This document shows, piece by piece, positions 25,195-28,006 of a stretch of 41,538 nucleotides of DNA. The notes below the pieces were generated by a model. The model worked only from the letters and a program-made list of their open reading frames with translations. It was not told the origin of the DNA and ran no database searches. A program made the translations under genes and the position numbers. Position 1 is the first letter of the stretch; every line of letters begins with the position of its first letter. This DNA is from an uncultured Asticcacaulis sp. (GTDB lineage: Bacteria; Pseudomonadota; Alphaproteobacteria; Caulobacterales; Caulobacteraceae): NCBI GenBank assembly GCA_936940865.1, contig CAKZJB010000128.1:1-41538 (forward strand), in the 5' to 3' direction.

Positions 25195-26511
25195 TCAGGC
25201 CTCATTCATGACAAGAGACCCAAAGGTCTCGTTTTCACGAATATAGCGCAGCACATTTTCGGAAAAACCGTCTATGTGCGTCCAGGCCCCGTAGCCGACA
25301 CCGTTTTTGGCGGAAGCGACGTTGATCATGTAGGCGCGGCCCGCCACGGGGTCCGGCACCGGGTCACGCGACTGTTCGTCGGTTATGACGATCAGCCGGT
25401 CGTGGGCGATGCCGTTGACCTTGGCCACGGCCTTGCCCAGTTCGGTTCCGCCGTGCGGCTGAGACCGGACGATCGCGTCGACGCCCGCCATGCCCCGGCG
25501 CGCCGGCACCTCCACCACCGCGTTCGAGAAGGTGAAGATGCGGACATCCCCCGGGATGACGGCGGCGAGCGTTGCCGCCGCGTCGAGCCGCTTCAGGTCC
25601 GATTTCACCGACAAAGGCCAGTCCATGGAGCCGGACACGTCGACCAGGACAATCGTCCGGCCGGCCATGATCGGCTGCTCGAGGATGGTCTCCATCAGCG
25701 CCTGGTCGAGCCAGGGCTCGAACCGCGGTGCGGCCCGGGCGGCCGCCACGTAGCGGAAGGGCAGGATCCGTTCGGCCCCGCGCCGCGCCACGATGGCTTC
25801 GGTCACAAGCGTTTCGTCGACGCCCGACTGGTCCATGTTGCGCAGGTTACGCAACAGGGCCAGATAGCCGAGCTTGCGCTCAGTCAACAGGCGCGAGAAG
25901 GTTTCCGCCTTGTCCGCGCCGCCCGACAACGCCACTTCCCAGGTGTCCGGGGCGGCAAGCGTGCGGTCGACCAACTGCTTCCAGATTTCGGCCTGCGCCT
26001 CATCCTTCGGCTTGGCGTGGCAGAGGAACAGGACGTCGCGGAGTTTCACCGGACCGTCGCGGTCGTACTTGGCCAGTTGATAGGCGTCGAACTTGACGAA
26101 GGCGCGGGCCAGGCCCAGCTTCATCTGCTTCGACAACGGGCGCTTTCCGCCGCGCCAGTAGAGCGCGACCAGTTCGGTCAGCTCGTCGGCGCGTTGAATC
26201 ACGCGTTCGATGGTCGGGGCGACCAACGGTCCGCCGGCCTTGATCAGGGCGCACACCAGCATCAGCGGCGCATGGCGCAGCTTCATCTGTTCGCGCGCCT
26301 CGATGGCCAGCGCCGCCACGGTTTCCGGAGCGACCCCGGACGCCAGCGCGAAGATCCGGTCGGCGATGGTTTCGCCGTCCTCGTAGAATTCGTTTTCCCA
26401 CAACAGGCAGGACAGGACCGAACGCCGCAGCTTCTGTTCGGCGTTGAGTTCCCGCGCGGGGGCGCCCTCATGCGTTATGCCGGGGCGCTTTTGAAAAATG
26501 TTCAACCGCAT
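25195..26511 (-). CDS. rsr: Ro60 orthologue (Rsr), TROVE-domain RNA-binding ring protein
   Basis: A 438-residue orthologue of the Ro60 autoantigen. Bacterial Ro60 (Rsr) binds Y RNA, can tether it to polynucleotide phosphorylase, and functions in RNA decay and stress survival. Residues ~1-275 form the HEAT-like TROVE ring (EQKLRRSVLSCLLWENEFYE, EQMKLRHAPLMLVCALIK, GLARAFVKFDAYQLAKY, LGYLALLRNLRNMDQSG). Residues ~284-438 are a von Willebrand A domain with an intact MIDAS DVSGS (D291, S293, S295) and a further HGGTELGKA. The frame reaches to 26883, but the start at 26511 has AGAAGAGGTG upstream and begins the conserved MRLNIFQK. A hairpin (26543-26568) lies in the leader. Upstream on the same strand are Y RNA-like structures; the HTH gene follows. 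Confidence 0.95.
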   Translation of the reverse strand: MRLNIFQKRPGITHEGAPARELNAEQKLRRSVLSCLLWENEFYEDGETIADRIFALASGVAPETVAALAIEAREQMKLRHAPLMLVCALIKAGGPLVAPTIERVIQRADELTELVALYWRGGKRPLSKQMKLGLARAFVKFDAYQLAKYDRDGPVKLRDVLFLCHAKPKDEAQAEIWKQLVDRTLAAPDTWEVALSGGADKAETFSRLLTERKLGYLALLRNLRNMDQSGVDETLVTEAIVARRGAERILPFRYVAAARAAPRFEPWLDQALMETILEQPIMAGRTIVLVDVSGSMDWPLSVKSDLKRLDAAATLAAVIPGDVRIFTFSNAVVEVPARRGMAGVDAIVRSQPHGGTELGKAVAKVNGIAHDRLIVITDEQSRDPVPDPVAGRAYMINVASAKNGVGYGAWTHIDGFSENVLRYIRENETFGSLVMNEA

Positions 26512-26542
26512 GGTTGCACCTCTTCTGGCATAGATGCGCTGT

Positions 26543-26568
26543 CCTTTGACGGCCCCATGCCGGAAAGG
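26543..26568 (-). repeat. Hairpin in the rsr leader
   Basis: CCTTT (26543-26547) and CGGC (26550-26553) pair with GCCG (26559-26562) and AAAGG (26564-26568) around a 5-nt loop, giving nine base pairs with a small internal loop. It is ~32 nt before the rsr start codon, beyond the ribosome site. Confidence 0.4.
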
Positions 26569-26734
26569 TTCAAACGCGTGAATTGGGGGGGCTGGGGCGA
26601 CCCGCCGGCGAGACTCTCCGGTGGCAGCAGGTGAGGTTATGGCGCGGGGCGGGACTATGACGCGTCCGGCTGCGGCCAATGATGTATCCAGGGGAACCGG
26701 CGGAAACGTCAGCCCCTCACCGGCCATTGCCGGA

Positions 26735-26855
26735 TCAGGAATGGGGAGTCGAACCCCGGGGCCAATGGCCCCTCTCCGGAACGATGAAGACGTATCCTGA
26801 CGCCACCTGGACGCTTCGTCCGGATGGTTCCCTGTTCGGGCCTGTCCGGGCGATG
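26735..26855 (-). ncRNA. Second structured RNA with a tRNA T-arm mimic, upstream of rsr
   Basis: Read on the minus strand from a likely start near 26855, three elements stand out. A hairpin covers 26827-26803 (core GGACG-AAG-CGTCC). The stem TCAGGA (26800-26795) / TCCTGA (26740-26735) encloses two abutting hairpins: GGGGCC-ATT-GGCCCC (26772-26758) and a T-arm GGGG-TTCGACT-CCCC (26757-26743), whose loop matches the tRNA consensus TTCGANT. No D-arm is seen, so this is not a tRNA and not a full copy of the module at 27.3 kb. It could be a second Y RNA or part of the rsr 5' leader. The 3' end is unclear; further GC-rich hairpins continue to ~26680. Confidence 0.4.
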
Positions 26856-26861
26856 AAGCGG

Positions 26862-26892
26862 CTACTAAAGCAACATGTTGCATAATGCAACA
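26862..26892 (-). promoter_or_regulatory. Palindromic operator/promoter, copy 1 (in front of rsr-proximal RNA)
   Basis: TGTTGCA (26876-26882) and TGCAACA (26886-26892) are perfect 7-bp arms with a 3-nt centre; overlapping it is a second perfect palindrome GCAACATGTTGC (26870-26881). On the minus strand TTGCAT (26890-26885), a 17-nt spacer and TAGTAG (26867-26862) fit a -35/-10 pair. The same arrangement recurs at 27.4 kb. Confidence 0.5.
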
Positions 26893-26953
26893 AGAATTTC
26901 AAAAAATTTTCAGCGCCCCGGGAATGGGTGATCTCGATTGGGAGGCACTTCCG

Positions 26954-26973
26954 CCGGATATTGCCGTATCCGG
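26954..26973. repeat. 7-bp perfect stem-loop in the RNA region
   Basis: CCGGATA (26954-26960) and TATCCGG (26967-26973) with a 6-nt loop, lying between the hairpin pair and the second promoter copy. Together with CGGGAAATCCCG (26989-27000) it suggests that the transcript stays structured through this stretch. No protein-coding signal is seen here. Confidence 0.4.
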
Positions 26974-27012
26974 GCCACGTTGGCTTGGCGGGAAATCCCG
27001 TCATCCAGGGCT

Positions 27013-27086
27013 GCCTTTTCCCGGTGCAGCGATGAAGTCGAAACCGTCGCCACGGGACGCTGAAAACTTTAGATCGGGGAAAAGGC
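27013..27086. repeat. 10-bp inverted repeat that competes with hairpin B's U-run
   Basis: GCCTTTTCCC (27013-27022) and GGGAAAAGGC (27077-27086) are perfect complements 54 nt apart. On the minus-strand RNA the upstream arm contains the TTTT and the closing GCC of hairpin B, so the two structures are mutually exclusive. This is the geometry of a terminator/antiterminator or a refolding RNA. Confidence 0.4.
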
Positions 27087-27134
27087 GACAACGGCCACAG
27101 TTGCACCTGAAGCGAAGGATCCGTTGTCTGCGCC
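27080..27134 (-). ncRNA. Hairpin B: GGCG / CAG bulge / CGCC element with U-run
   Basis: On the minus strand GGCG (27134-27131), a three-base CAG bulge (27130-27128) and ACAACGG (27127-27121) pair with CCGTTGT (27094-27088) and CGCC (27087-27084), around a 26-nt loop, followed by TTTT. The base and bulge are identical to hairpin A, while the upper stem is different and fully paired. This compensatory pattern supports a real RNA element, perhaps a Ro60-binding stem or terminator. Confidence 0.5.
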
Positions 27135-27158
27135 ACCGAAATGGAGCCATCGGGACCA

Positions 27159-27198
27159 GGCGAAAACAGTTCGAGATTAAGAAACTGTCTTCTGCGCC
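27159..27198 (-). ncRNA. Hairpin A: GGCG / CAG bulge / CGCC element
   Basis: On the minus strand GGCG (27198-27195), bulge CAG (27194-27192) and AAGACAGTT (27191-27183) pair with AACTGTTTT (27171-27163) and CGCC (27162-27159); one pair is G-T. The loop is 11 nt. It begins six nt after the end of the tRNA-like RNA's outer helix. It shares the 10-nt GTGGCGCAGA start with hairpin B. Confidence 0.5.
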
Positions 27199-27203
27199 AC
27201 GAC

Positions 27204-27367
27204 GGCAAATGCCACAGGGAACAGGCGAAAGCGCCTACTCTGATGCTCTATCCGATTGAGCTACGGAGACGTTAGACGCCTCAGGCCGGATTCGAACCGG
27301 CTACCTTCAGATTGGACGAAGGAATCGCTTTCTACACCACTGCGGCCATCGTTACCAAAGCAACGAC
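27204..27367 (-). ncRNA. YrlA-type Y RNA with circularly permuted tRNA-like module
   Basis: The minus strand folds as a complete tRNA body in permuted order. TCTGA (27311-27307) is the anticodon-stem 3' strand, then AGGTA is a 5-nt variable loop. The T-arm is GCCGG-TTCGAAT-CCGGC (27301-27285). The acceptor 3' strand CTGAGGC (27284-27278) pairs 6 of 7 with the 5' strand GTCTCCG (27270-27264), closed by a G-C and a 5-nt loop. TA (27263-27262) equals U8-A9. The D-arm is GCTC-AATCGGATA-GAGC (27261-27245) with A14, G18, G19 and A21. Then comes TCAGA (27243-27239). The open anticodon end continues as a helix: GAAAGCG/CGCTTTC, GCCGCAG/CTGTGGC, and GGTAA plus AT with ATTTGCC, leaving bulged bases. 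This is what bacterial Y RNAs near Ro60 genes are known to look like. The 5' and 3' ends are estimates. Confidence 0.8.
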
Positions 27368-27373
27368 AATGCC

Positions 27374-27403
27374 GATATACGTCGAGACGTTGCGTGATGC
27401 AAC
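27374..27403 (-). promoter_or_regulatory. Palindromic operator/promoter, copy 2 (in front of the tRNA-like Y RNA)
   Basis: GTTGC (27389-27393) and GCAAC (27399-27403) flank GTGAT; the 20 nt starting at 27389 match copy 1 (from 26877) at 17 positions. On the minus strand TTGCAT (27402-27397), a 17-nt spacer and TATATC (27379-27374) make a -35/-10 pair, placing the transcript start near 27367. Confidence 0.55.
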
Positions 27404-27541
27404 AAAAATCTTGACGTACAAATGATACCGGTGACAACTTCGCGCGGAACAGGCATTTTCAATCACGGCTGCGACTGGCTTTCGCAAAACATACGTATAA
27501 AGTGTGTCGCGTTGCCACATCACAATGTCGGGGAAATCCTC

Positions 27542-28006
27542 TTGTCTGCCAAACGCCTGCTTCTTGTCCTCGGCGCCGTCGCCGCCGTAACCGCCATTTC
27601 CCTGCCGGCCGCCGCCGATACCGCCGCCATCGTGGCCGCACGTTCGGACTATTTCCACGGCCTCGGCAAGTCTTTCAAAGGCCTGCGCGAAGAGCTGAAG
27701 GGATCATCGCCGGACCTTAACCTGGTGCGTAAATACACGGGCGACATCGCCGCCGCCGCGCCGAAGCTGCCGACCCAGTTCCCGGCGGGCAGCGGCCCGC
27801 AACCGGGCATCAAAACCGAGGCCAGGGCCGAGATCTGGAGCGACGGCGCGAAGTTCCGGCAGGCCGCGGCAGCATTGAATACCGCCGCGCAGACGCTGAA
27901 CACGGCGGCGCAGGGCAGCGATATCGGCGCCATCCGCACGGCAACCGACGCTCTCGGCCAGACCTGCAAGACCTGCCATATGACCTTCCGTAAGGAAGAC
28001 CACTAA
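27542..28006 (+). CDS. Periplasmic cytochrome c' family protein
   Basis: A 154-residue c-type cytochrome. The chosen start is TTG at 27542, with GGGGAAAT upstream and a clean signal peptide directly after it (KRLLLVLGAVAAVTAISLPAAA); a longer reading from ATG at 27422 would put ~40 odd residues first. The mature part is a helical protein with YFHGLGKSFKGLREELKG, IWSDGAKFRQAAAALN and a C-terminal haem motif CKTCH (142-146), as in the four-helix cytochrome c' family. These bind NO or act in electron transfer. The cytochrome b561 gene begins 3 nt after its stop, so the pair likely works together in the periplasm and inner membrane. Confidence 0.85.
   Translation: MSAKRLLLVLGAVAAVTAISLPAAADTAAIVAARSDYFHGLGKSFKGLREELKGSSPDLNLVRKYTGDIAAAAPKLPTQFPAGSGPQPGIKTEARAEIWSDGAKFRQAAAALNTAAQTLNTAAQGSDIGAIRTATDALGQTCKTCHMTFRKEDH

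Follow-up and report, generated by a model that had tools for sequence, protein, structure and literature searches.

The closest described relatives of the locus examined here are the YrlA RNAs (RF02553), which are encoded beside rsr, the gene for bacterial Ro60. In these, a permuted tRNA-like domain made up of a T-arm, a D-arm and a closed acceptor arm sits on a stem that closes it. The description of YrlA consulted here lists D, T and acceptor arms and makes no mention of anticodon arms (PMC8394870). In the Salmonella rsr-yrlBA-rtcBA operon, Ro60 occurs together with Y RNAs and frequently with RtcB, and there is a link to cut anticodon loops (PMC7790460). The tmRNA is also an RNA that imitates part of a tRNA, and is without the lower half that carries the anticodon (PMC3929946). 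Finally, the phage tRNAs that escape anticodon nucleases (PARIS/T5) are tRNA-shaped, working tRNAs, and their anticodon-loop sequence matters to tRNA-cutting enzymes (PMC11455837).

The arrays of Asticcacaulis and its relatives described here share the plan and the neighbourhood of YrlA but have a conserved stem sequence that differs in part, tandem modules and two further classes of head, II and III, which carry an anticodon arm or loop. They resemble the Salmonella operon in the features named above and differ from it in a palindrome at a fixed spacing to a -10-like hexamer, in the larger number of modules and in that the genome's own rtcB lies elsewhere. Unlike tmRNA, the modules lack a free acceptor end, and those of classes II and III retain the anticodon; unlike the phage tRNAs, they are mimics without an acceptor end, set on a Y-type stem. 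No description of anticodon-bearing or arrayed Y RNAs was found in the excerpts of the literature matches listed (bacterial Y RNAs, tandem or permuted forms, anticodon-enzyme decoys), a scope outside which the main primary YrlA papers lie.

An array of Y-type modules upstream of rsr

The window, the whole stretch of 41,538 nucleotides that was analysed, encodes rsr on the minus strand (25195..26511), a bacterial Ro60 of 438 aa with TROVE and vWA domains (Pfam TROVE, E 1.2e-13). A repeat search of the window showed that the 5' and 3' motifs of a module recur upstream of this gene. The common plan is a two-helix stem with conserved sequence (GGYG..AG - helix - UUnCUUCG ... helix - ..UUCCC) and a variable head, and the window holds four modules, probably five, with this one kind of stem, all on the minus strand. 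A covariance model of the common stem (R1) was trained on 18 natural modules with short heads, of which the window supplied two. Module A (27211..27346) was outside the training set and is detected in the window with 45.6 bits (E 3.6e-9). Module B (27146..27206), a stem with a short apical loop marked by repeat families D1 and D3, is a training sequence that scores 49.5 bits in the genome search (E 5.3e-8) and is unlisted in the R1 search of the window itself. Module C (27068..27145), also a training sequence, scores 68.1 bits and has the loop UUCAGGU on a weak 2-bp closing stem. Module E (26683..26815), outside the training set, has a head that includes a T-arm and an additional hairpin (34.5 bits, E 1.6e-6). 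Module D (26903..27070) is tentative: its long head is flanked on both sides by an 18-nt inverted repeat (I1, 89% complementary) and relatives have long heads similarly placed, and the R1 search of the window did not detect it. Many arrays of Caulobacteraceae have such a long head (~100 nt) at a comparable position (window 26903-27070, L059:5453-5606 and others), often with GGCGGAAG near the end of the head. The earlier note had described a single module, and the stretch in question (27204-27367) does contain the whole of module A, but the sister modules at 27146-27206, 27068-27145 and 26683-26815, and probably that at 26903-27070, went unmentioned.

Two promoter-like elements were found on the minus strand by motif search. 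The first (27374..27403) consists of the palindrome GTTGCATCACGCAAC (27389-27403) and the hexamer TATATC (27374-27379), 17 nt after TTGCAT; the second (26862..26891) consists of the palindrome GTTGCATTATGCAAC (26877-26891) and the hexamer TAGTAG (26862-26867), again 17 nt after TTGCAT. The palindrome GTTGCATNAYGCAAC, with at most one mismatch, occurs in two places only in the 5.07-Mb genome, before module A and before module E. Upstream of 16 rsr loci, the window's own included, 29 of 31 palindromes, counted with a slightly wider pattern than that of the genome search, carry TA exactly 17 nt downstream of their opening hexamer TTGCNN. A strict sigma-70 scan gave no promoter by its rule, and a terminator scan gave matches no more often than chance. 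Because the palindrome is confined to two places and keeps a fixed 17-nt spacing to TA, the array likely has a dedicated regulator or form of promoter.

The stem is not confined to this genome. We searched R1 in the loci of the best 80 of 196 Rsr relatives in the genome collection (922,814 bases) and obtained 134 matches at E <= 0.01, 16 of which had been used for training. Without exception, the matches lie upstream of rsr and on its strand; they cover 73 of the 80 loci, 40 of them with two or more matches. A motif-and-stem scan reaching at most 3 kb upstream, the source of the training set, gave 169 matches in sense, one in antisense and six in Markov shuffles. The loci come from Caulobacteraceae, Hyphomonadaceae, Bradyrhizobium, other Alphaproteobacteria and Acidobacteria, with a few in records named Clostridiales, Pelotomaculum, Gallionellaceae, Azohydromonas, Desulfovibrio and Desulfobulbus; many are metagenome bins.

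Within the family, the first motif scan found modules upstream of 17 of 18 rsr copies in 17 Caulobacteraceae genomes (own included), the exception being a genome (G165) with a cut rsr and no modules. In an even draw of 199 family genomes from a larger group, strictly filtered R1 searches detected modules in 13 of 17 rsr-positive genomes versus none of 182 rsr-negative ones (no rsr at E <= 1e-20), counts uncorrected for kinship; of the four missed (G016, G149, G165 and G217), all except G165 have modules seen by the motif scan. RtcB is found in 15 of the 17 rsr-positive and 52 of the 182 rsr-negative genomes (Fisher p 1.9e-6, also uncorrected for kinship), and rtcB adjoins rsr in six of the 17. 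The Asticcacaulis genome itself has a single RtcB, on another contig (C51), so its rtcB is not beside rsr.

Some loci of this set have features of their own. One genome (G024) carries a second, diverged rsr copy (L055, G024:C3:33951-35231; 64% identity, one in-frame stop) with its own upstream modules, which by eye include a head resembling a permuted tRNA-Leu, and the same genome has modules (L057:3060-3500, G024:C24) on a contig where the Rsr search gave no match. At L113:5126-5268, the coordinates of an Rfam tRNA match of 44.9 bits span two adjacent modules.

Anatomy, covariation and family membership of module A

Module A was identified by base-by-base reading, by the Rfam YrlA model, by R1 and by an alignment of nine orthologues as a Y-type stem with a permuted tRNA head that is opened in the anticodon loop. 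On the minus strand, its T-arm (27285..27301) has 5/5 pairs (27297-27301 with 27285-27289) and the loop UUCGAAU, and 100% of its cells are paired in the alignment. The acceptor stem (27264..27284; 27278-27284 with 27264-27270) has 6/7 pairs, the mismatch being C27265/U27283, and, in both the reading and the alignment, is closed by a 5-nt loop, beneath which lies an additional closing pair (C27271-G27277); there is no CCA end. The D-arm (27245..27261) has 4/4 pairs (27258-27261 with 27245-27248), also seen in the alignment, and the variable loop is 5 nt long. The remote anticodon stem (27239..27311) joins UCUGA (27307-27311) to UCAGA (27239-27243) with 5/5 pairs, and outside it follow two 7-bp stems, GAAAGCG/CGCUUUC and GCCGCAG/CUGUGGC. 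The equivalents of the invariant tRNA bases are U8 at 27263, A14 at 27257, G18G19 at 27253-27252 and A21 at 27249. The parts of a permuted tRNA that the earlier note had listed for this strand, its stem counts, invariant bases, T-loop and variable loop, thus all proved correct base by base, as did the claim of an rsr gene about 700 bp downstream: rsr starts at 26511, 699 nt from module A and on the same strand.

The assignment to a family is less simple. At gathering thresholds, Rfam gives zero matches in the window. With open thresholds, the top Rfam match in 26400-27600 is YrlA (RF02553), full length with 40.4 bits (E 3.6e-7), well under its gathering score of 69 bits, so the minus-strand search proposed earlier names the expected family as the best match but below its cut-off. 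YrlA matches were obtained in 30 of 30 genomes (own plus 29 chosen from the genomes of the 80 rsr loci), all of them under the cut-off and 0 of 30 above it, and none at the gathering threshold was found in the nine rsr loci searched; a plain member of RF02553 is rejected on these three counts. By itself, a weak YrlA score is poor proof, because weak RF02553 matches turn up in 7 of 14 control genomes as well. The basal stem agrees with the Rfam YrlA consensus in its two-helix plan and differs in the letters of the internal loop and in the stretch after the second helix. By anatomy, module A has the T-arm, closed acceptor and D-arm in YrlA order within a long stem, and by neighbourhood it lies near rsr. 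We conclude that module A is YrlA-like and outside Rfam's YrlA family. The proposal of a YrlA-type Y RNA therefore stands as regards anatomy, rsr neighbourhood and co-occurrence with rsr, but has to accommodate a score under the Rfam cut-off, a conserved stem sequence that is partly its own and a tandem array that in relatives carries anticodon arms. A tRNA gene is rejected: ARAGORN finds zero tRNAs in the window, the tRNA model RF00005 reaches 23.9 bits in 26400-27600, under its threshold of 29, and there is no normal-order cloverleaf with free acceptor ends.

Covariation is better proof of module A than the YrlA score. We aligned nine Asticcacaulis class I modules chosen as orthologues of module A: that of the window, seven rsr-linked copies and L057. 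With the tRNA structure and both outer stems counted, 98.3% of 297 cells are paired, versus 86.5 +/- 1.2 in shuffles (0 of 500 as high), and both-sided changes occur in 34 cells versus 9.0 in shuffles; pairing falls to 35-49% when alignment columns are slid by one to three. The covariation among homologues that the earlier note had made a test of its proposal is thus present. The remote anticodon stem (27307-27311/27239-27243) has both sides changed in four of its five pairs. Folding, proposed as a further check, is less favourable: the energy minimum of module A folded alone has a local hairpin, CCUUCG/UGAAGG, over the remote anticodon stem, but it is the remote stem that the orthologues back. 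Of the nine, the window's copy alone could also form a local hairpin with a 7-nt loop; the other eight form fewer than three of its pairs, and have the remote stem with 5/5 pairs in seven and 4/5 in one.

Heads with anticodon loops that change quickly

We distinguish three classes of head. In class I, represented by module A, the tRNA is opened within the anticodon loop and the Y stem stands in its place, which is the YrlA plan. In class II, common in relatives with none in the window, the tRNA is opened between the D-arm and the anticodon arm, and the order becomes anticodon arm, variable loop, T-arm, closed acceptor, D-arm. Class III heads, such as module C, have a short anticodon-like loop alone on the stem, without T-arm, D-arm or acceptor. 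For class II we aligned 25 modules, comprising 24 of the 30 that passed a local-hairpin filter and one added by hand. In helices S2, T, acceptor and D, 97.2% of 600 cells are paired versus 74.1 +/- 1.3 in shuffles, with double changes in 134 cells versus 38.7. S1 and the anticodon stem, which MAFFT misaligned, were left out of this count (S1 pairs in 9 to 25 of the 25 rows, the anticodon stem in 15 to 24). The two classes differ in how the anticodon arm is made: a local anticodon hairpin of at least 3 bp is found in 23 of 25 class II and one of nine class I modules, the former count being partly selection because the modules were picked for a local hairpin, and a full remote anticodon stem in 2 of 25 and 8 of 9.

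The loops were compared with those of the genome's own tRNAs. The genome has 43 tRNA matches, on which ARAGORN gave 43 distinct sequences; one odd sequence was dropped and one Lys loop re-registered by hand, and the reference set consists of 40 anticodon-loop heptamers. Of 151 distinct heads, 111 have the anchor followed by a seven-base hairpin of at least two pairs, and 40 gave none. Eighteen of the 111 hairpin loops are identical to an own-genome anticodon heptamer (0.32 expected, at most 3 in 2000 shuffles of the loop letters), and 41 fit the pattern Y-U-N-N-N-R-H (4.97 expected, at most 13), counts in which heads from close relatives are included and so are not independent. In a register test on 144 anchored heads, heptamer matches number 24 at offsets 0-2, two at offset 3 and one at offsets 4-15, with a background of 17 matches in 7845 heptamers of the remaining heads. 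The two and eight matches at offsets -4 and -3 are made with the conserved CUUC(G) itself; part of the resemblance to anticodon loops is built in, because this conserved sequence completes some heptamers.

The loop of module C, UUCAGGU, agrees letter for letter with the anticodon loop of the tRNA-Leu(CAG) encoded by the same genome; it is the only module of the window with an exact match, and the match sits on a weak stem. In what by eye is the same place, other Asticcacaulis have CUUGAAA, UUUGAAA, UUUAGGU and CUCCAAA. Own-genome tRNA confirms only the last, as Trp, and the remaining three we take to be loops of Ser(UGA) and Leu(UAG). In all, 23 kinds of triplet are displayed in 47 heads. Farther afield, the last modules of three loci, two named Hyphomonadaceae and one an uncultured Alphaproteobacterium, have the common stem CUUC/GAAG with the loops UUGAGGU (L105:5652-5745), UUUGGGU (L113:5497-5590) and CUGUCAC (L119:5851-5942).

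The anticodon changes quickly in Bradyrhizobium, where rsr was found in 60 of the 195 genomes drawn. From 44 rsr sequences (30 loci from the Bradyrhizobium search and 14 from the 80-loci set), one class II module (group M340) was recognised in 25, and its changes were counted on the rsr tree over the first 66 bases, up to the acceptor loop, with the D-arm and S2' left out. Sites 32 and 33 change 0 times, while 34, 35 and 36 change 3, 6 and 7 times; sites 37 and 38 change 1 and 3 times and the two sites of the closing pair 4 times each. Beyond the loop and the UACUUCG stretch, the mean is 0.46 changes per site. These sites include two in the S2 helix, with 5 and 4 changes, and one in the acceptor loop, with at least 9, so the anticodon is not the sole changing spot. 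Anticodon and acceptor loop are the changing spots of the compared part of the head in these 25 orthologues. The triplets are GCA (17), GAU (3), AUC (3), ACC (1) and GUC (1), with seven triplet changes on the tree. To our knowledge, AUC and ACC are unusual as bacterial anticodons, a point against exact copying of a host tRNA by those four of the 25 heads. A second module (M245, 7 loci) displays GCU (4), GUU (1), GCG (1) and GAU (1), with three triplet changes; its trend is the same, but the sample is small. The rates of group M480, which holds two wrongly grouped rows (L193 and L195), were not used.

Proposed role of the tRNA-like heads

Starting from the array, its anatomy, the covariation, the loop identity and the fast anticodon change shown above, we favour a reading in which the modules are Ro60-bound baits or sensors for anticodon-loop damage, with repair by RtcB, and give it a probability of about 0.45. 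The module units would be transcribed, and Rsr, judging from known Ro60 biology, would bind the common stem. The Ro60 rings would then carry tRNA mimics that cannot be charged, because these have no CCA end, and the heads may engage enzymes that cut or bind anticodon loops; candidate targets are anticodon nucleases of phage defence, of toxin systems or of rival bacteria. A bait or sensor role would account for an anticodon that changes fast while the frame of the loop (32, 33) stays, and for the company that rsr keeps with the tRNA-sealing ligase RtcB. Two articles point the same way: Hughes et al. suggest that the tRNA-like part of a Y RNA competes with an anticodon nuclease (PMC7790460), and a survey of jumbo phages describes TROVE proteins as RNA-repair platforms with a tRNA-like partner (PMC7824862). 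Against a bait role count the report that the Salmonella nuclease does not use YrlA as a substrate (PMC7790460), the 40 of 151 heads without a hairpin and the fit of only 41 of 111 loops to the tRNA pattern. So do the AUC and ACC heads of Bradyrhizobium, the changes at S2 and acceptor-loop sites, the single exact match in the window's array, the heptamer matches made with CUUC(G) and the location of the genome's own RtcB on another contig. Such arrays lie near rsr in Alphaproteobacteria, Acidobacteria and some records named Clostridia, Desulfovibrio, Desulfobulbus and Gallionellaceae. A wider version, which we put forward tentatively, is that they constitute a Ro60-bound display of anticodons, in which uncharged tRNA mimics would serve as baits or sensors with anticodons shifting quickly between species, as an RNA arm of immunity and tRNA repair.

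The chief rival, which we consider rather unlikely, is that the modules are classical Y RNAs, with an anticodon whose identity is drift and a tRNA-like head that acts as gate and tether, recruiting PNPase or other RNA for the Ro60 ring (RYPER). Tethering of this kind is reported for Rsr and Y RNA of Deinococcus (PMC8394870, PMC7790460) and fits the tRNA elbow features kept in module A, but it leaves unexplained both the constancy of sites 32 and 33 against the change at 34-36 and the class III heads without T- or D-arm. Less probable still is that the modules tune tRNA modification as a sponge for enzymes that modify tRNA or otherwise read anticodons, such as TGT, TilS or pseudouridine synthases. 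The loops keep the anticodon-loop pattern, the T- and D-loops are intact and YrlA is reported as a substrate of DusA and TruB (PMC8394870); however, 23 kinds of triplet in 47 heads are not the set of one enzyme.

That the modules are permuted genes processed into working tRNAs is hardly credible: all tRNA arms are present in class II heads and RtcB is a tRNA-splicing ligase in archaea and eukaryotes (PMC7790460), but short loops lacking CCA bridge the acceptor ends, an acceptor is missing from class III heads and the genome already has its own 43 tRNA matches; we reject it on the closed acceptor. Debris of tandem tRNA genes, or chance, could be invoked for the weak RF02553 matches of the control genomes, and adjacent tRNA genes might imitate a permuted order, but the position on one strand and one side of rsr, the absence of any ARAGORN tRNA in the window and, provided the alignments are right, the covariation counts across the permuted acceptor and stems reject this equally improbable origin.

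For the reading as Ro60-bound baits or sensors, arrays with anticodon arms and fast-changing anticodons make the competition suggested by Hughes et al. (PMC7790460) directly testable. If this reading is true, Ro60, a human autoantigen with bacterial relatives, would gain a concrete client in damaged or attacked tRNAs.
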